From: Candidatus Parcubacteria bacterium
Lineage (GTDB): Bacteria; Patescibacteriota; Microgenomatia; Levybacterales; GWA1-39-11
Direction: 5' to 3'
Length of the DNA stretch: 42,464 bases
NCBI GenBank assembly: GCA_003599595.1
Contig: QZIP01000022.1
Span: forward strand, 1-42,464
A program made the position numbers and the translations under genes. The notes under the pieces were generated by a model that saw nothing but the letters and a program-made list of their open reading frames with translations, did no database searches and was not told where the DNA came from. Shown one piece after another: positions 1,240-39,685 of the stretch (positions within the stretch are counted from its first letter, which is position 1; each line of letters starts with the position of its first letter).

Positions 1240-1965
1240 ATGTTTACAAAGGAGGATATTTTAAAAGAGATCCGCAAAGTTGCTAAAGAGAATGGAGGCA
1301 AAACACCAAGCGAGAAGGTTTTTTATGAAAGCACTGAAATAATTAGGTATAATCGCATGAGATATTGGCCGAATTATGGCGAGTTAGTAAGAGAGGCAGG
1401 GCTTATTCCTAATGAATTTGATAAAACTAAATATACCCAAAAAGAATTATGTGAGATGTTTATTGGAGTTATTCGCGAGACAGGTAAGTGGCCAACTAGA
1501 GGTCTCTTAGATGTTAAACACTTTAAAGATTCTAGCTTTCCGAACTCTAAAACTTTTTACAGCAAACTTGGTTTAACAGGTGATTTAGCGAAGACAATTC
1601 TCGGATATGTAGAAGATCGTGATGAATTTGAGGACGTTGTTAATATATGTAATTCCATTCTCAAAAAGTATAAAAATCATAGTGAAACCTCTGAAAACGA
1701 CGTCGCAAGTGGTTTTGTTTATTTGGGTAAACAACATGGTAGATATAAGATTGGCAAATCAAAAGACGCAAACCGCCGCAGAGAAGATATAACTTTATTG
1801 GGACCAGAACCATTTAAACTTATCCATGAGATAGAAACAGACGATATGAACGGCGTAGAGAAATATTGGCATGAGAGATTTAAATCAAAATGGGTAAGAG
1901 GAGAATGGTTTAAATTAAACTCTTCAGATATAAAGGCCTTTAAGTGTTGGAAGAAAATAGCTTAG
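1240..1965 (+). CDS. GIY-YIG (T5orf172/MUG113-like) nuclease with N-terminal homing-endonuclease-associated repeats
   Basis: C-terminal GFVYLGKQHGRYKIGKSKDANRR..GVEKYWHERF..GEWFKL; N-terminal repeats of the type ENGGKTPSEKVF..YWPNYGELVREAGL. Confidence 0.75.
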   Translation: MFTKEDILKEIRKVAKENGGKTPSEKVFYESTEIIRYNRMRYWPNYGELVREAGLIPNEFDKTKYTQKELCEMFIGVIRETGKWPTRGLLDVKHFKDSSFPNSKTFYSKLGLTGDLAKTILGYVEDRDEFEDVVNICNSILKKYKNHSETSENDVASGFVYLGKQHGRYKIGKSKDANRRREDITLLGPEPFKLIHEIETDDMNGVEKYWHERFKSKWVRGEWFKLNSSDIKAFKCWKKIA

Positions 1966-1992
1966 ATTTGATTTTGATATAAATTCAAATAA

Positions 1993-2664
1993 ATGAAGAA
2001 CCAAAAGTTTGTAACTGAAATTCGTTTTATACCAAAACCTCTTTTTCTTGATATAAGAGGCCAGATAACCACAGCTATGGCTTCGGAAAAATTTGATCAG
2101 TGGAAGATAGATGCAGACAGAACAGAAGTTTTTACTGATGATGGGTTAATTTTTGCCTCATATAAAAATATTGGGTTTATTACACTACGAGATCAAAATA
2201 TTGAATTGTGTATAGAGAGGATGGATGAGGCAATAAAAATAATGGGAGATCTTCCTCCTCTTAGATGGGGTGTCAGAATTTATACAATTATTCCCACTCA
2301 AAAAAAATTTACTACTCTTGTATCTGAATACAAAAAGAAGCTATTAAACTTTAACCCCAAGAATTTTTCTAAAATTAATGGGAATCTTGAAGATATTGGA
2401 ATTTCATACATCTTTAAAAATGACAAAAATAAATATCACATAATAACTGGTCCTATGGATAAAAAACAGGCAAGTCAAATTTTTGCTCCAAATGATCTTC
2501 CTAATACAGGTATTTTTATTGATTTAGATATATATAGGGAAAGCGATGATTTTTACAAAGATGATTTTAGAAGGGCACGAATCACAAGTTTTATAAGAGA
2601 TTCTTTTACAAAAGGGAAAGAAATTGTAGAAGAGTTGAAAAATAATATAGATGACAAAAAGTAA
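1993..2664 (+). CDS. Hypothetical protein (possibly TIGR04255-like)
   Basis: 223-aa ORF; stop overlaps the start of the next ORF, suggesting translational coupling. Confidence 0.6.
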   Translation: MKNQKFVTEIRFIPKPLFLDIRGQITTAMASEKFDQWKIDADRTEVFTDDGLIFASYKNIGFITLRDQNIELCIERMDEAIKIMGDLPPLRWGVRIYTIIPTQKKFTTLVSEYKKKLLNFNPKNFSKINGNLEDIGISYIFKNDKNKYHIITGPMDKKQASQIFAPNDLPNTGIFIDLDIYRESDDFYKDDFRRARITSFIRDSFTKGKEIVEELKNNIDDKK

Positions 2665-3049
2665 TACAAAAACAAACCCAGAAGTAATTACAAGCCTACC
2701 TCCTTCCCAGGGAGGAACTGGCGCTGAGGTGCAAGAACTACAACCTGCCACTATTGGTGGCAGTATAAAACCTCCAAAATACCAACAAGAGGGCCTACTG
2801 CAAATAATGAAAGATAATTGGCATCTTGTTCTTGTATTAATTGCTGCAATAAGCTTTTTTCTTTACCAAGTCTGGACGCCCTTAATAGAACTGAAACAAC
2901 GCGTAGGCGTGCTTGAAAAAACTGTGGATAAGAATTCAGAATTTATAGAAGAAGTTAAAAGAGGAAATTATTTTAATAAATTTCAAAATGAAACATTTCC
3001 TGGGACGTCAGCTCAGCCAAACTCACCTCAACCATCAGTGACACAGTAG
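2651..3049 (+). CDS. Hypothetical single-pass membrane protein
   Basis: 132 aa; one TM helix (LVLVLIAAISFFLYQVW) followed by a short coiled-coil-like segment. Confidence 0.55.
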   Translation: MTKSNTKTNPEVITSLPPSQGGTGAEVQELQPATIGGSIKPPKYQQEGLLQIMKDNWHLVLVLIAAISFFLYQVWTPLIELKQRVGVLEKTVDKNSEFIEEVKRGNYFNKFQNETFPGTSAQPNSPQPSVTQ

Positions 3050-3360
3050 CACAATCCCCAGGTTCGAATTCGGTTTCCGGTATAAAATTTCTTGAAGCTA
3101 ACAAAAAACGTCTGAAAATTTAGGCTCGAACCCTTCGATAAGTATACACTGAGTAAAATCGAAGTGCTCAGGGCTATAGCTAGAAAATCTTGCTTTGAAG
3201 GGCAGAATTGGAGGTTTTTAAAAACCATGGAGACCGATGTTTTGTAGATTTTGATCTTCCTGAATTATGCTGTTCAAAGCGCCTTTCGAAGTTGTCAGTA
3301 TAACCAACATATGTCTTGTTATCTTTTAGGCTTTGAAGAATATAAACATAATACATTGTT

Positions 3361-3420
3361 GAGGAGCGGGCCGCCCTTTGGGCGAGCCTCTCAAATTTTG
3401 CAGACAAAATTTGAGCTCCT
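3361..3420. repeat. Tandem hairpins immediately upstream of a GIY-YIG ORF
   Basis: CTCAAATTTTG-CAGA-CAAAATTTGAG (11-bp perfect stem) next to GAGG..GCCC-TTT-GGGC..CCTC. Confidence 0.75.
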
Positions 3421-3560
3421 GACGCACTCTTACACAGACTGCCAGGATTCATCCAAGAATTTAACTCTACTTCTATTTTACCAGATTTTTTGTACGAATT
3501 GGAGCCTAATTTAACCTTGAAGTTTCCTTCTTCCTCAAAATAAGCCCTAGTTACTGTTTT
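3411..3560 (-). repeat. Dispersed repeat, copy A
   Basis: Reverse complement closely matches 41160-41300 (e.g. AAATTAGGCTCCAATTC, TTAAATTCTTGG.TGAATCCTGGCAGTCTGTGTAAG-like blocks). Confidence 0.85.
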
Positions 3561-3622
3561 TAATCCTTGTTCAGTAACGGATTTTTTATGTACAATAAAG
3601 TGTAATAACAATTGTTAACTCT

Positions 3623-4459
3623 ATGAATCAAGAAATAGCTCAAGTAACTAAAATAGCAGTCTTTCGGAATAGAAAAATCCGTAAAACCATTCATGAAAAT
3701 GAGTGGTGGTTTGTAATCGTTGATGTTGTGGCTGCCCTAACTGGTTCAGTCCAACCAGAAGGGTACATTAAAGATATGCGCAGACGCGATCCAGAATTAT
3801 CCAAAGGATGGGGGCAAATTGCCACCCCCCTTTCAGTTCAAACATCAGGTGGAGTACAGAAATTAAATTGCACCAATACTGAAGGTATTTTTAGGATTAT
3901 CCAATCAATCCCTTCACCAAAAGCAGAACCTTTTAAAAGATGGTTAGCCAGAGTTGGATATGAAAGGGTGCAGGAGATAGAAGACCCAGAGTTAGCCCAA
4001 AAACGGGCCAGAGCGTTTTATAAAGCAAAAGGTTACCCCGAAGATTGGATAGAAAGACGGATGCGCTCTATTGCCATAAGGGAAGAACTGACAGATGAAT
4101 GGCAAAAACATGGTGTAGAATTGGCAAAAGAGTATGAAATACTAACAGCGGAAATATCCAAAGCAACCTTTGGTGTTACTCCATCAGAATATAAGAAAAT
4201 AAAAGGACTCAAGCGTCAAAATCTACGGGATCATATGAATGATCTGGAACTTTTGTTTTCCCAACTGGGTGAGGCTGCAACTACAGAAATTACCAAAACA
4301 GAACATCCTCAAGGTTTTGAAAAGAATAAACAAGTCTCAAGACGGGGAGGTAAAATTGCTGGAGATGCAAGATCTAATTTGGAAAAAGAAACTGGAAGAA
4401 AAGTAATTACTCCACAAAACTATTTGCCTAAAAAGCAAGGTAAAAAACTTTCAAAATGA
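3623..4459 (+). CDS. Bro-N domain protein (phage antirepressor / DinD-like)
   Basis: IAVFRNRKIRKTIHENEWWFVIVDVVAALTGSVQPEGYIKDMRRRDPEL and C-terminal DinD-like region with RRGGKIAGDARSNLEKETGRKVITPQNYL. Confidence 0.75.
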   Translation: MNQEIAQVTKIAVFRNRKIRKTIHENEWWFVIVDVVAALTGSVQPEGYIKDMRRRDPELSKGWGQIATPLSVQTSGGVQKLNCTNTEGIFRIIQSIPSPKAEPFKRWLARVGYERVQEIEDPELAQKRARAFYKAKGYPEDWIERRMRSIAIREELTDEWQKHGVELAKEYEILTAEISKATFGVTPSEYKKIKGLKRQNLRDHMNDLELLFSQLGEAATTEITKTEHPQGFEKNKQVSRRGGKIAGDARSNLEKETGRKVITPQNYLPKKQGKKLSK

Positions 4460-5076: not shown

Positions 5077-5136
5077 AATATTTGATCTATTTTGTATCAG
5101 TTAATGTAAATTAGTGTTTATTTCTGTCGCTTTTTG

Positions 5137-5207
5137 AGCGGGATACCAGAATCGAACTGGCTTCTCCACCTTGGAAGGGTGGCATACTACCGGTGTACTA
5201 ATCCCGC
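5137..5207 (-). tRNA. tRNA-Gly (TCC)
   Basis: GCGGGATTAGTACACCGGTAGTATGCCACCCTTCCAAGGTGGAGAAGCCAGTTCGATTCTGGTATCCCGCT; paired acceptor, anticodon stem CCACC/GGTGG, anticodon TCC. Confidence 0.93.
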
Positions 5208-5241
5208 ATAACTCTATCCCAGGCGGGGAAGAGAGCTATTC

Positions 5242-5297
5242 TCCGTCAAAAACAAGTATTTTGGCGGACCCGCTTAAATGCATTAGCTTTTAGCGGG
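5242..5297 (-). repeat. Two tandem hairpins downstream of a GIY-YIG ORF
   Basis: TCCGTCAAAA..ATTTTGGCGGA (5242-5268) and CCCGCTTAAATGCATTAGCTTTTAGCGGG (5269-5297). Confidence 0.75.
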
Positions 5298-5317
5298 TAC
5301 CACTAAACTACCACCGC
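5298..5317 (-). repeat. Partial tRNA-Gly(GCC)-like 5' fragment
   Basis: Minus strand GCGGTGGTAGTTTAGTGGTA matches 18/20 of nucleotides 1-20 of the tRNA at 39611. Confidence 0.75.
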
Positions 5318-5583
5318 ATGTCTTTCAAGTAATTTTCTAATCTTCTTTTTAAATATCCTCTACCAAAGCCTGTTTTTAATTGTAATTCTCTTTTCAAAGC
5401 ATCTGTTTTATTTAAACATGCCTCGTAGTAAATTAAAGATAGTCTATCAAATTTTTTTGTTGTTTTGACCTCTTTATTTATATGATCCTTATATCTATTT
5501 TTTAAATCTTCACATGAACCGATATAAAATTCATGCTTTATGCCTTCTGACTGACAAAGTAAAACATAAACATAATAAAACAT
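5308..5583 (-). CDS. Small GIY-YIG family protein
   Basis: MFYYVYVLLCQ..HEFYIGSCEDLKNRYKDHIN..LIYYEACLNKTDALKREL; stop codon lies inside the partial tRNA fragment. Confidence 0.85.
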   Translation of the reverse strand: MFYYVYVLLCQSEGIKHEFYIGSCEDLKNRYKDHINKEVKTTKKFDRLSLIYYEACLNKTDALKRELQLKTGFGRGYLKRRLENYLKDMRW

Positions 5584-5600
5584 AATCCATTCTTCACCTT

Positions 5601-5664
5601 GCCCAACAAAAGGACTTTTAGTCCATTTTGACGGGCCCGCCTAAATGTCATAGCTTTTGGCGGG
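5601..5664 (-). repeat. Two tandem hairpins upstream of a GIY-YIG ORF
   Basis: GCCCAACAAAAGGAC..GTCCATTTTGACGGGC and CCCGCCTAAATGTCATAGCTTTTGGCGGG; the second closely matches the hairpin at 5269-5297. Confidence 0.75.
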
Positions 5665-5701
5665 GAAGGGTGGCATACTACCGGTGTACTAATCCCGCAT
5701 A
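5664..5701 (-). repeat. Duplicated 5' half of tRNA-Gly(TCC), ending at the anticodon
   Basis: 38-bp exact direct repeat of 5173-5210 (GGAAGGGTGGCATACTACCGGTGTACTAATCCCGCATA). Confidence 0.95.
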
Positions 5702-5860: not shown

Positions 5861-5890
5861 TTGACAAATGCAACTCAGTTGCATTATTAT
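5861..5890 (+). promoter_or_regulatory. Promoter with perfect palindromic operator (candidate Fur/Zur box)
   Basis: TTGACA (5861-5866), 18-nt spacer, TATTAT (5885-5890); AATGCAACT-C-AGTTGCATT palindrome (5867-5885) fills the spacer. Confidence 0.75.
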
Positions 5891-5899
5891 GAAACAAAT

Positions 5900-6316
5900 A
5901 TGGAAACAGCTGAAATCATAAAAAAACTCAGAGATAACGGCTTTAAGATAACAAAAATAAGAAAAAGCATCATAAACCACTTAACCAATTGCAAATCCCC
6001 TGTATCTGTAAAAGAACTTTTAAATGAACTGAAAATTCTGGGAACAAAAGCAAACAAAAGCACAATATATAGGGAAATGAAATTTCTAAAAGATAATAGC
6101 TATATAGTAGAAACTCAATTTGAAGATAGAAAAAAGAGGTTTGAGATATCATCTGATCATCACCACCATCTGGTCTGTGAAATTTGCGGAAGAATACAAA
6201 AAGCAAAAGACTGCCTAGTTTCTAAAATAGAAAAGAGAATTAAAGCAAACCAGGGATTTCTTGTTAAAAAACATAGACTCGAATTTTTTGGAGTCTGCAG
6301 TATATGTCAACACTAG
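5900..6316 (+). CDS. Fur-family metalloregulator (Zur-like)
   Basis: METAEIIKKLRDNGFKITKIRKSIINHL..STIYREMKFLK..DHHHHLVCEICGRIQ..CSICQH; next gene is a ZIP transporter. Confidence 0.88.
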   Translation: METAEIIKKLRDNGFKITKIRKSIINHLTNCKSPVSVKELLNELKILGTKANKSTIYREMKFLKDNSYIVETQFEDRKKRFEISSDHHHHLVCEICGRIQKAKDCLVSKIEKRIKANQGFLVKKHRLEFFGVCSICQH

Positions 6317-7062: not shown

Positions 7063-7205
7063 ATACATTTTAAGAATCTTTAAATAAGATTTTATCCCAT
7101 CCGTTAAAAACTATAGCAACAACACTCCTTAGCTCTATATATAAATATATAATTTGCAAACAGTTTACCCACAAAGTTCTTTATGGGTAAATAAAAATTA
7201 AAAAG

Positions 7206-7272
7206 TGGACCGTACCAGATTTGAACTGGTGATCTTTCGCATGTCCTACGAACACCCCACACTGCCATCTTT
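7206..7272 (-). pseudogene. Probable pseudo-tRNA (Val GAC-like 3' half, unrelated 5' half)
   Basis: Intact ACCAG-TTCAAAT-CTGGT T-arm and ACGGTCC acceptor strand; no matching GGACCGT 5' strand; U33 not conserved. Confidence 0.5.
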
Positions 7273-7274
7273 TG

Positions 7275-7346
7275 TGGACCGGAAGAGATTTGAACTCTCA
7301 ACCTCCTCCATGCCATGGAGGCGCGCTACCGTTACGCTACCGGCCC
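7275..7346 (-). tRNA. tRNA-Ala (GGC)
   Basis: GGGCCGGTAGCGTAACGGTAGCGCGCCTCCATGGCATGGAGGAGGTTGAGAGTTCAAATCTCTTCCGGTCCA; loop ATGGCAT. Confidence 0.92.
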
Positions 7347-9282: not shown

Positions 9283-9411
9283 CTTGCCAAAGTGTGCCTG
9301 GGGCGGGACTTCCTTCGACTATGCTCAGGATAAACTTCTCGTCCCTTACCCACTTCTGCAAACTCAGTACATTTTACACTGAGCTTGCCAAAGTGTGCCT
9401 GGGGCGGGACT
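9283..9411. repeat. 28-bp direct repeats of the tRNA-Leu 3' end flanking a 73-bp CTCAG-type insert
   Basis: CTTGCCAAAGTGTGCCTGGGGCGGGACT at 9283-9310 and 9384-9411; insert contains TTCGACTATGCTCAGG and CTCAGT..ACTGAG. Confidence 0.93.
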
Positions 9412-9476
9412 CGAACCCGCATGACTTGCGCCACACGCTCTTAAGGCGTGCGTGTATACCATTCCACCACCCAGGC
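9396..9476 (-). tRNA. tRNA-Leu (TAA)
   Basis: GCCTGGGTGGTGGAATGGTATACACGCACGCCTTAAGAGCGTGTGGCGCAAGTCATGCGGGTTCGAGTCCCGCCCCAGGCA; loop CTTAAGA. Confidence 0.93.
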
Positions 9477-9503
9477 ATTATTAATCTTCTGTAACCTTCT
9501 CTG

Positions 9504-9770
9504 TTATATATAATCTATACTCTCCAATATTAATTTTAACTGTTGCCTTAATAGTCTTTTACCTTCAGTAGTCTTTAAAAATTTTTCTCTTCTTAAAGCA
9601 TCTCCCTTTTCAATATAAGCTTCATAATGAATTAATTCAACTGGTCTAAATCTCATCGTACTCTTACACTTTCCATCCTTATGCTGTTTAATTCTAGATC
9701 TTAAATTTCCACTACTACCTGTATATAGCTTATTATTTATTAGTTTTAATATGTAAACATAGTAAAACAT
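9504..9770 (-). CDS. Small GIY-YIG family protein
   Basis: MFYYVYILKLINNKLYTGSSGNLRSRIKQHKDGKCKSTMRFRPVELIHYEAYIEKGDALRREKFLK. Residues upstream of this Met in the ORF track come from hairpins and a tRNA fragment. Confidence 0.88.
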   Translation of the reverse strand: MFYYVYILKLINNKLYTGSSGNLRSRIKQHKDGKCKSTMRFRPVELIHYEAYIEKGDALRREKFLKTTEGKRLLRQQLKLILESIDYI

Positions 9771-9780
9771 ACGTGGATAC

Positions 9781-9817
9781 CCTGTCATCCGACAGGGCCA
9801 TATCGAATGATATGGCC
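9781..9817 (-). repeat. Two tandem hairpins upstream of a GIY-YIG ORF
   Basis: CCTGTC-ATCC-GACAGG (9781-9796) and GGCCATATC-GAAT-GATATGGCC (9796-9817). Confidence 0.85.
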
Positions 9818-9834
9818 ATTCCACCACCCAGGCA
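9816..9834 (-). repeat. Partial 5' end of tRNA-Leu(TAA)
   Basis: 19-bp exact copy of 9459-9477 (tRNA nucleotides 1-18 plus one flanking base). Confidence 0.9.
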
Positions 9835-39237: not shown

Positions 39238-39525
39238 ATGTTTTACGTTTATATATTGTTGAGCAAAAGAAATAACAAGTTTTATATTGGATTTACAAAA
39301 GATTTAAAGAGAAGGAGAAAAGAACACTCAAATGGACTAGTTGAATCAACTAAAAATAGAAGACCATTACTATTAATATATTATGAGGCGTATTTGAAAA
39401 CAGAAGATGCTCAAGCAAGAGAAAAATTTTTCAAAACAACCAAAGGCAAAATGCAATTAAGAAAACAATTAAATAATTCCCTTTCGGAAAACACACCAGA
39501 TTTGTTTTGTCCCAAACTATGTTAA
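39238..39525 (+). CDS. Small GIY-YIG family protein
   Basis: MFYVYILLSKRNNKFYIGFTKDLKRRRKEHSNGLVESTKNRRPLLLIYYEAYLKTEDAQAREKFFKTTKGK; may start at 39217. Confidence 0.88.
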   Translation: MFYVYILLSKRNNKFYIGFTKDLKRRRKEHSNGLVESTKNRRPLLLIYYEAYLKTEDAQAREKFFKTTKGKMQLRKQLNNSLSENTPDLFCPKLC

Positions 39526-39545
39526 CGGTGGTAGTTCAAGGGTAG
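39526..39545 (+). repeat. Partial 5' end of tRNA-Gly(GCC)
   Basis: CGGTGGTAGTTCAAGGGTAG versus CGGTGGTAGTTCAGGGGTAG in the tRNA at 39611; abuts the GIY-YIG stop codon. Confidence 0.88.
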
Positions 39546-39568
39546 CCGCCAAAATACTTGTTTTTGGC
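39546..39568 (+). repeat. Hairpin shared with 5242-5268
   Basis: CCGCCAAAATACTTGTTTTTGGC; minus strand of 5242-5268 reads TCCGCCAAAATACTTGTTTTTGACGGA. Confidence 0.85.

Positions 39569-39610: not shown

Positions 39611-39685
<75 letters not shown>

Follow-up and report, generated by a model that had tools for sequence, protein, structure and literature searches.

How does a bacterium come to carry a tRNA gene that breaks off at its anticodon and, further along, an intact gene for the same tRNA, with a small nuclease gene between them? The question is raised by a locus in a stretch of 42,464 nucleotides (contig QZIP01000022.1, hereafter the window) from a Candidatus Parcubacteria bacterium, a member of the Patescibacteria, which are an ultra-small, uncultured lineage. 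The locus lies on the minus strand, downstream of tRNA-Pro(TGG). It opens with a 5' half of tRNA-Gly(TCC) and continues through twin hairpins and a GIY-YIG ORF to a second 5' half, further hairpins, and an intact tRNA-Gly(TCC):

5698-5664, minus strand: displaced 5' half A of tRNA-Gly(TCC), 35 nt, tRNA positions 1-36, stopping right after the anticodon
5663-5637, minus strand: hairpin 1 of the twin hairpin, beginning at the break, 27 nt, CCGCCAAAAGCTATGACATTTAGGCGG
5636-5601, minus strand: hairpin 2 of the twin hairpin, 36 nt, GCCCGTCAAAATGGACTAAAAGTCCTTTTGTTGGGC
5600-5591, minus strand: tRNA-like continuation AAGGTGAAGA after the hairpins, 10 nt
5583-5308, minus strand: GIY-YIG ORF, putative homing endonuclease, 91 aa, PF01541 E=2.4e-11
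5317-5227, minus strand: displaced 5' half B, from a second tRNA-Gly(TCC), with a twin hairpin in the D-loop, ending after the anticodon (TTCC)
5297-5269 and 5268-5242, minus strand: D-loop hairpins of half B
5226-5208, minus strand: probable left end of the cassette bearing the intact tRNA, CCGCCTGGGATAGAGTTAT
5207-5136, minus strand: intact tRNA-Gly(TCC), putative replacement copy (ARAGORN; Rfam 60 bits)

This order of parts had been given in a preliminary description of the DNA and was confirmed on the sequence, as was the 38-bp exact direct repeat shared by the half-tRNA and the intact tRNA (5701-5664 / 5210-5173), which takes in three leader bases. A base-by-base check also bore out that half A ends exactly after the TCC anticodon, and it is identical to the intact tRNA at 35/35 positions. 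Beyond the hairpins, AAGGTGAAGA matches at 9/10 positions the continuation of tRNA-Gly itself from position 37 on, AAGGTGGAGA. The twin-hairpin stretch after half A folds better than dinucleotide shuffles (z = -3.2), and the second set, in half B, gives the same value (z = -3.2), with 0/200 shuffles folding as well. The loop of hairpin 1 is related to those in half B and at two loci elsewhere, L269 and L277, whereas its stem is different. Half B had been taken for a fragment of tRNA-Gly(GCC), and it does open like that gene (GCGGTGGTAGTTTAGTGGTA), but past the D-loop hairpins it reads GAATAGCTCTCTTCC (5241-5227). Without the hairpins it fills 7+2+4+7+4+1+5 standard positions before the loop CTTCC and stops at position 36, which identifies the anticodon as TCC and half B as another displaced half of tRNA-Gly(TCC). 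Its acceptor strand, GCGGTGG, fits the 3' strand of the intact tRNA at 5/7 positions only.

The intact tRNA is identical at 72/72 positions to one in G038, a genome from a different family, where TTCC-CCGCCTGCCATAGCTAT precedes it (locus L317); this is our basis for reading 5226-5208 as the probable cassette end. We found no 3' half of the displaced glycine tRNAs in the window. The GIY-YIG ORF is the sole ORF between the tRNA copies, and no integrase was found there, nor did a scan of the seven neighbouring ORFs yield a recombinase or a transposase, which leaves the contrast that had been drawn with the polarity of integrase elements beside the point. An Rfam scan of the window matched tRNAs only, with no group I intron or other catalytic intron RNA. 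The genome, a draft of 1.4 Mb in 52 contigs with an estimated contamination of 2.7%, holds three quite different tRNA-Gly(TCC) genes (window 5136-5207, L023 2645-2717, and L026 3846-3916), a sign of repeated import or else of a contaminated bin.

The same plan is repeated twice more in the window, at tRNA-Leu(TAA) and tRNA-Gly(GCC), and the window also contains a remnant of another tRNA:

9816-9833, minus strand: displaced 5' part of tRNA-Leu(TAA), 18/18 identical to the intact tRNA-Leu
9780-9815, minus strand: twin hairpin of the Leu(TAA) element, perfect
9504-9767, minus strand: GIY-YIG ORF of the Leu(TAA) element, PF01541 E=2.1e-15
9395-9476, minus strand: intact tRNA-Leu(TAA) (ARAGORN, Rfam)
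9294-9310, minus strand: displaced 3' end of tRNA-Leu lying beyond the intact copy, whose own 3' end it matches at 17/17 positions
39238-39522, plus strand: complete GIY-YIG ORF upstream of the Gly(GCC) instance
39526-39568, plus strand: 5' part of tRNA-Gly(GCC) with a D-loop hairpin, 19/20 positions matching the intact tRNA-Gly(GCC)
39611-39685, plus strand: intact tRNA-Gly(GCC) (ARAGORN, Rfam)
7205-7233, minus strand: orphan 3' fragment resembling tRNA-Ala, lying behind an intact tRNA-Ala(GGC) at 7274-7346

The Leu(TAA) element (9294-9833) is complete, with both displaced ends flanking the intact tRNA, while at Gly(GCC) the GIY-YIG ORF after the 5' part is truncated to its first codons. The loops of the Leu(TAA) twin hairpin, ATTC and GGAT, are mutually complementary if G-T pairs are allowed. 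Other genes of a mobile type lie at 1240-4459, namely those for a MUG113/T5orf172 protein (a weak match to a homing-endonuclease repeat) and a BRO-N protein, together with a GIY-YIG fragment at 3225-3356.

The association of such ORFs with tRNA genes extends well beyond the window. There are 19 GIY-YIG matches in the focal genome, many of them adjoining tRNA genes, and relatives of the nuclease are present in 8/8 genomes of the family, 77/82 of the order, and 286/389 of those sampled from the phylum. Among 138 GIY-YIG copies with flanking sequence, 53 have an intact tRNA on the same strand within 150 nt downstream, another 37 have a same-strand tRNA within 200 nt upstream, two have an antisense tRNA only, and 45 have no tRNA nearby, so that same-strand tRNAs outnumber antisense ones by 90 to 2. 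When loci that had been picked because of a tRNA are excluded, 46 of 124 copies have a downstream and 33 an upstream tRNA, and an unselected sample from the phylum (25 loci, mostly from other families) gave ten downstream, five upstream, and no antisense cases. We estimate that, at a density of about 45 tRNA genes per 0.9 Mb, chance would put a tRNA start on the same strand within 150 nt downstream of far fewer than 1% of positions.

At 25 of the 53 loci with a downstream tRNA, the ORF is preceded, at a distance of about 50 to 125 nt, by a 5' part of a tRNA that shares the anticodon of the downstream one. Shuffling the tRNA labels, which leaves the relatedness among loci in place, gave a mean of 2.7 such cases and a maximum of 7 (500 shuffles), and the remaining GIY-YIG copies gave 0/85. 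At nearly all of the 29 loci that we inspected, the tRNA copy breaks off where the hairpin begins, and the breaks fall in the D-loop, the anticodon loop, or the T-loop (L174 and L352). With dozens of such loci across independent assemblies, the plan is neither chance nor the isolated assembly error that had been considered at the outset. A search for twin hairpins with the loops CATNCG/CGNATG recovered only some of the families; the hairpin families vary between tRNAs. In a second class of loci (37/138; for example L093, L100, L118, and L021), hairpins and a GIY-YIG ORF lie directly 3' of an intact tRNA, often one for Ser, Met, Arg, Glu, or Trp, and the hairpins are stronger still (z below -2 in 30/35). 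GIY-YIG ORFs with no tRNA nearby (L104, L111, L330, L333, L338, and L348) often follow a palindrome or a motif like CCCGTTAGA, and at L104 and L111 the ORF is located in the loop of a palindrome.

What such a gene looks like before insertion can be seen among three congeneric genomes, G016, G029, and G017, which we compared at nearly all of their tRNA loci. In several cases, a resident tRNA gene that is whole in G017, a genome very poor in elements, is split in G016 or G029 by an insert containing a second, complete tRNA of the same anticodon. At tRNA-Thr(TGT), for example, alignment of the outer halves to the G017 gene scores 35/35 and 38/39, whereas the inner tRNA is 63% identical to it; the corresponding values are 36/38, 35/37, and 71% for Val(CAC), and 32/35, 39/39, and 72% for Glu(TTC) in G029. 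The tRNAs Arg(TCG), Pro(TGG), Asp, Leu(TAG), Leu(CAG), and Val(TAC) behave in the same way, and the displaced native part is closer than the imported part to the intact gene of relatives at the Thr, Val, Glu, Arg, and Ile loci. Where a resident tRNA matches an intact orthologue, the cut falls in the anticodon loop or the D-loop. Because tRNAs resemble one another, controls with nested tRNAs of other isotypes had a high background, and we therefore take the comparison of congeners as our main evidence. In these alignments, the same point of orthologous genes is occupied in one congener and empty in another at the Ile, Val(CAC), Glu, Asn, and His loci, and resident 3' parts persist downstream at Val, Thr, Pro, Glu, Arg, Leu, Ile, and Asn loci.

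Some of these inserts carry a GIY-YIG ORF, namely those at Ile, Glu, and Asn in G016, with resident 3' remains downstream, and the one at Val(CAC) in G029. Others, of about 110 bp, have none; they consist of a tRNA enclosed by inverted-repeat arms and join the resident halves without a target duplication:

L120, L124, L128, L143, L144, L145, L315, and L318: nested complete tRNAs of about 73 nt with inverted-repeat arms and no nuclease ORF

Within the tRNA set of G016, each of the inner tRNAs named above for that genome is the sole intact gene that was found with its anticodon. About 33 loci, the one in the window among them, have the tRNA-Pro(TGG) gene in one piece and with a nearly identical 5' half, whereas in G005, G016, and G070 a complete foreign tRNA-Pro interrupts the anticodon loop of this gene; the Pro cassettes of G016 and G070, which belong to two genera, are nearly identical.

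For the focal gene, synteny around a Fur protein gave no empty site, as the Fur genes of relatives are distant, but the neighbourhood of tRNA-Pro and tRNA-Gly did. In G005, a genome of the same family, tRNA-Pro(TGG) and tRNA-Gly(TCC) are neighbours, and the Gly gene runs uninterrupted past the anticodon up to the end of the contig. The empty sites, both here and at the many congener tRNAs, support the view of the preliminary description that an element with a GIY-YIG ORF split the tRNA at the anticodon and that its function was restored. The two tRNAs adjoin in G007 as well. There (L316) and in G038 (L317), a type-B half whose D-loop contains a hairpin ends at the anticodon directly before a type-A tRNA-Gly(TCC), with no GIY-YIG ORF between them; L317 lies in another genomic setting, and its displaced half differs from the focal one though the tRNA is identical over 72 bases. 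We conclude that the inner step at the focal locus, from half B to the type-A cassette, was an event involving a tRNA only, and that the outer step, which left half A, its hairpins, and the ORF, was a GIY-YIG event; the nesting suggests the order in which they took place. The GIY-YIG event is found alone at L277, in another genus, where the displaced half differs from the intact tRNA (25/34) and is followed by a twin hairpin in reverse orientation, a related ORF, and the intact tRNA. The stretch after the L277 hairpins matches the imported tRNA rather than the displaced one. We also considered the shared flank AAAGCGACAGRAATA behind the L277 tRNA as the right end of the element, and this was ambiguous, with a third copy lying behind a decayed Gly 3' end in L270.

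The residues Y, Y, G, R, H, E, E, and K are conserved in the focal ORF, and Y, Y, G, R, H, and E are invariant across 12 relatives, so the element carries an endonuclease ORF with intact catalytic residues. An AlphaFold2 model of the 91-aa protein (pLDDT 91) is predicted to have the GIY-YIG core fold, and its nearest matches in the PDB are the UPF0213 protein BH0048 and Slx1. Small GIY-YIG proteins of the UPF0213/COG2827 type and Slx1, which are bare nuclease domains or a subunit of a resolvase of branched DNA, have the fold and the active-site residues in common with the focal nuclease, but they are not known as parts of elements that restore a tRNA. The named records with protein relatives are mostly from Patescibacteria, and others come from Lentisphaerae, Ignavibacteria, Bacteroidales, Desulfobacterales, and further groups. 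On a nuclease tree that is short and weakly resolved, the target isotype changes 25 times, compared to 35-43 times in shuffles, and the focal nuclease forms a Gly-specific clade with those of L269 and L277 (support 99). The phylogeny of the nuclease therefore appears to follow the target tRNA across hosts, which is what would be expected of homing into the same tRNA of other hosts. Similar nucleases are also found at tRNAs for different amino acids (Ile L127 and Val L150), and homing alone is therefore insufficient, as the matching tRNA must sometimes have been newly acquired.

Relatives of the nuclease are found outside tRNA genes as well, in a 16S rRNA gene (L062 1501-1734), apparently in the 3' part of another (L082 1549-1755), and behind tmRNA (L101 and L116). 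In G016 and G017, an HNH endonuclease ORF separates an intact tRNA-Phe from a decayed tRNA-Phe 5' part:

L125, about 5861-6295, minus strand, and L154, 4394-4822, plus strand: HNH ORFs at tRNA-Phe, PHROG match E=2.1e-30

As this is the same plan with another nuclease, the strategy is not bound to one nuclease family. An ORF at tRNA-Arg(CCT) in G017 was considered as a LAGLIDADG gene, and this identity was not confirmed, with an HTH_38 domain as the only match.

Taken on these comparisons, which are made entirely among sequences and, within the order, among draft genomes mostly from environmental samples, the account that we favour and consider probable is that a single tRNA-Gly(TCC) was invaded at least twice by elements resembling homing endonucleases that brought a spare tRNA with them and did not rely on splicing. 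The small GIY-YIG nuclease would cut the tRNA gene in a loop, in the focal case in the anticodon loop between positions 36 and 37 and elsewhere in the D-loop or T-loop. Repair from a donor bearing the element, with the halves of the same tRNA serving as homology arms, would then bring in the twin hairpins along with the nuclease ORF and a working tRNA of the same anticodon. Dead halves of the resident tRNA would stay behind outside the insert, and the imported or re-completed tRNA would keep the cell alive, so that the intact copy is presumably the one in use. On the right-hand side, the exchange could end just past the cut, which would join a new 5' half to the old 3' half, or beyond the tRNA, which would replace it whole, and both outcomes seem to occur. 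Some cassettes may have lost the ORF, or may never have had it, leaving a complete tRNA between inverted-repeat arms within another tRNA. The hairpins may protect the dead copy from cleavage or shape the folding of the ORF's mRNA, and the simplest guess is that they destroy the cut site in the element's own arm. Several observations weigh against this account: the similar nucleases at tRNAs for different amino acids, the 45 of 138 copies with no tRNA nearby, the detection of a 5' part at only 25-29 of the 53 loci with a downstream tRNA, the lack of a resident 3' half in the focal window, and an acceptor strand shared between the displaced part and the intact tRNA at 15 of 29 loci, focal half A included, which simple duplication would also produce.

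That last observation bears on the best of the alternatives, in which only a new 5' half was supplied at the anticodon, or the 5' half was duplicated in the manner of a long target duplication, with the intact tRNA keeping the resident 3' half. At the focal locus, this would fit the identity of half A to the intact gene over 38 bp, with the three leader bases, and the lack of a 3' remnant downstream, and it would fit the identical acceptor strands of the 15 loci. At the other 14 of the 29 GIY-YIG loci that have a displaced 5' part, this part and the intact tRNA differ in the acceptor strand, and the 3' strand of the intact tRNA pairs with its own 5' strand at 7/7 positions and with the displaced one at a mean of 4.8/7. 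As the 3' strand fits only its own partner, the whole tRNA was replaced at these loci. Resident 3' parts also lie downstream at loci of eight tRNA types and at Leu(TAA) in the window, and focal half B cannot be where the intact 3' half came from. We consider this alternative unlikely. The proposal in the preliminary description that the element supplied a new 5' half accordingly fails as a general rule, and it may still apply to half A.

Somewhat less likely again is a separate mode of transposition, based on hairpins and single-strand insertion into loops, that would mobilize the hairpins and tRNA cassettes, with the GIY-YIG ORF as a passenger or another user of the same loops. The tRNA-only cassettes and cargo-free hairpins of G016 and G029 do share the ends CCCGCCTG/CGGGCAGG, in either orientation, and these cassettes join the resident halves with no target duplication; the presence of GIY-YIG ORFs in a 16S rRNA gene and behind tmRNA, and the resemblance of the nuclease fold to Slx1, a cutter of branched DNA, point the same way. 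Against it, we saw no transposase adjoining the focal locus, the hairpin families vary between loci, and the isotype-specific clades of the nuclease suggest site-specific homing. It is very improbable that the outer halves are alive, with the nested unit acting like an intron and the outer tRNA being rejoined at the RNA level once the inner one is excised: some outer halves are nearly perfect (Thr, Val, and Glu) and the break in the anticodon loop is near the canonical site of archaeal introns, but many outer tRNAs lack a 3' half (as at the focal locus and at Val(TAC) in G017) or carry hairpins in a second loop, the window has no group I intron, and the matching anticodon of the inner tRNA would serve nothing. 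Ordinary decay, in which the outer copies of tandem tRNA duplications decayed and selfish ORFs drifted in, would suit genomes rich in palindromes and GIY-YIG ORFs, where tandem tRNAs do exist, but we give it hardly any credence, as it is strongly disfavoured by the empty-site comparisons and at odds with the breaks in loops at the start of a hairpin, with one tRNA lying inside another between both resident halves, and with the strand bias.

The closest known principle to the spare-tRNA elements that we favour appears to be the mobile-ORF gene hybrids of fungal mitochondria (Allomyces atp6; Glomus atp6, atp9, cox2, and nad3), in which an endonuclease ORF (LAGLIDADG, or GIY-YIG in atp9) and a foreign replacement part are inserted in a gene, the displaced native part is nearly identical to the intact gene of a relative, the imported part is diverged, and splicing is not needed (PMC3630166). 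A nuclease, a replacement part, and a displaced native part are common to both. The hybrids replace the C-terminal parts of mitochondrial protein genes, whereas the elements described here affect bacterial tRNA genes, break them in a loop marked by hairpins, and can carry a complete tRNA, even with no ORF. As to fusion of the imported part with the resident rest, the whole tRNA is replaced at 14/29 loci, and the 15/29 with the same acceptor strand would fit fusion and full replacement alike. In phage T4, the free-standing GIY-YIG nuclease SegB homes in the tRNA region and, like the present nucleases, lies beside tRNA genes, promoting the inheritance or amplification of that region (PMC2988022, PMC13096335). 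Its target is an intergenic stretch of the phage tRNA cluster, and the passages considered describe no displaced halves, insertion in the anticodon loop, or replacement by a tRNA of the same anticodon (PMC2988022, PMC13096335).

A plan like the focal one has been reported at a tRNA-Thr locus of Caldiarchaeum, where a 5' tRNA fragment is followed by a recombinase-bearing mobile element and an intact tRNA of the same kind (PMC3293823). This is a single archaeal locus that was ascribed to an integrase and attachment-site recombination and linked to intron gain (PMC3293823), and it differs from the present elements, with their nuclease ORF, hairpins, many target tRNAs, and nested complete tRNAs. 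The rRNA genes of CPR bacteria, the same radiation as most of our named relatives, contain insertions at stem-loops with GIY-YIG and LAGLIDADG ORFs; the GIY-YIG proteins were judged to lie outside homing, and the word tRNA is absent from the main text of that study (PMC11270868). The focal nuclease family is also found in 16S genes, but the tRNA loci, unlike those insertions, have target-specific nuclease clades. In the literature covered, outside which fall most subscription journals and preprints, we found no description of tRNA genes split by replacement tRNAs of the same anticodon.

Insertions with a spare copy recur at many tRNA genes, and they would represent a little-known route by which a parasite can enter essential genes without killing its host. 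They would also be an answer to an old problem of parasitic DNA, that of living in an essential single-copy gene with no splicing machine, which is to bring a spare. As the target, the cut site, and the donor can be read from the displaced halves, direct tests are possible. If the account is true, it explains why small GIY-YIG proteins crowd the tRNA genes of these genomes, and it accounts for foreign-looking tRNA genes and the horizontal replacement of tRNA genes. More tentatively, and with rather less confidence than we have in the history of the focal gene, these insertions may belong to a general class of mobile elements, in Patescibacteria and a few other phyla, that target the loops of essential tRNA genes and, rather than splice, carry a complete tRNA of the same anticodon. 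In its smallest form, such an element would be a tRNA gene of about 110 bp that enters another tRNA gene, and the tRNAs of these bacteria would then be swapped for foreign ones by their parasites.
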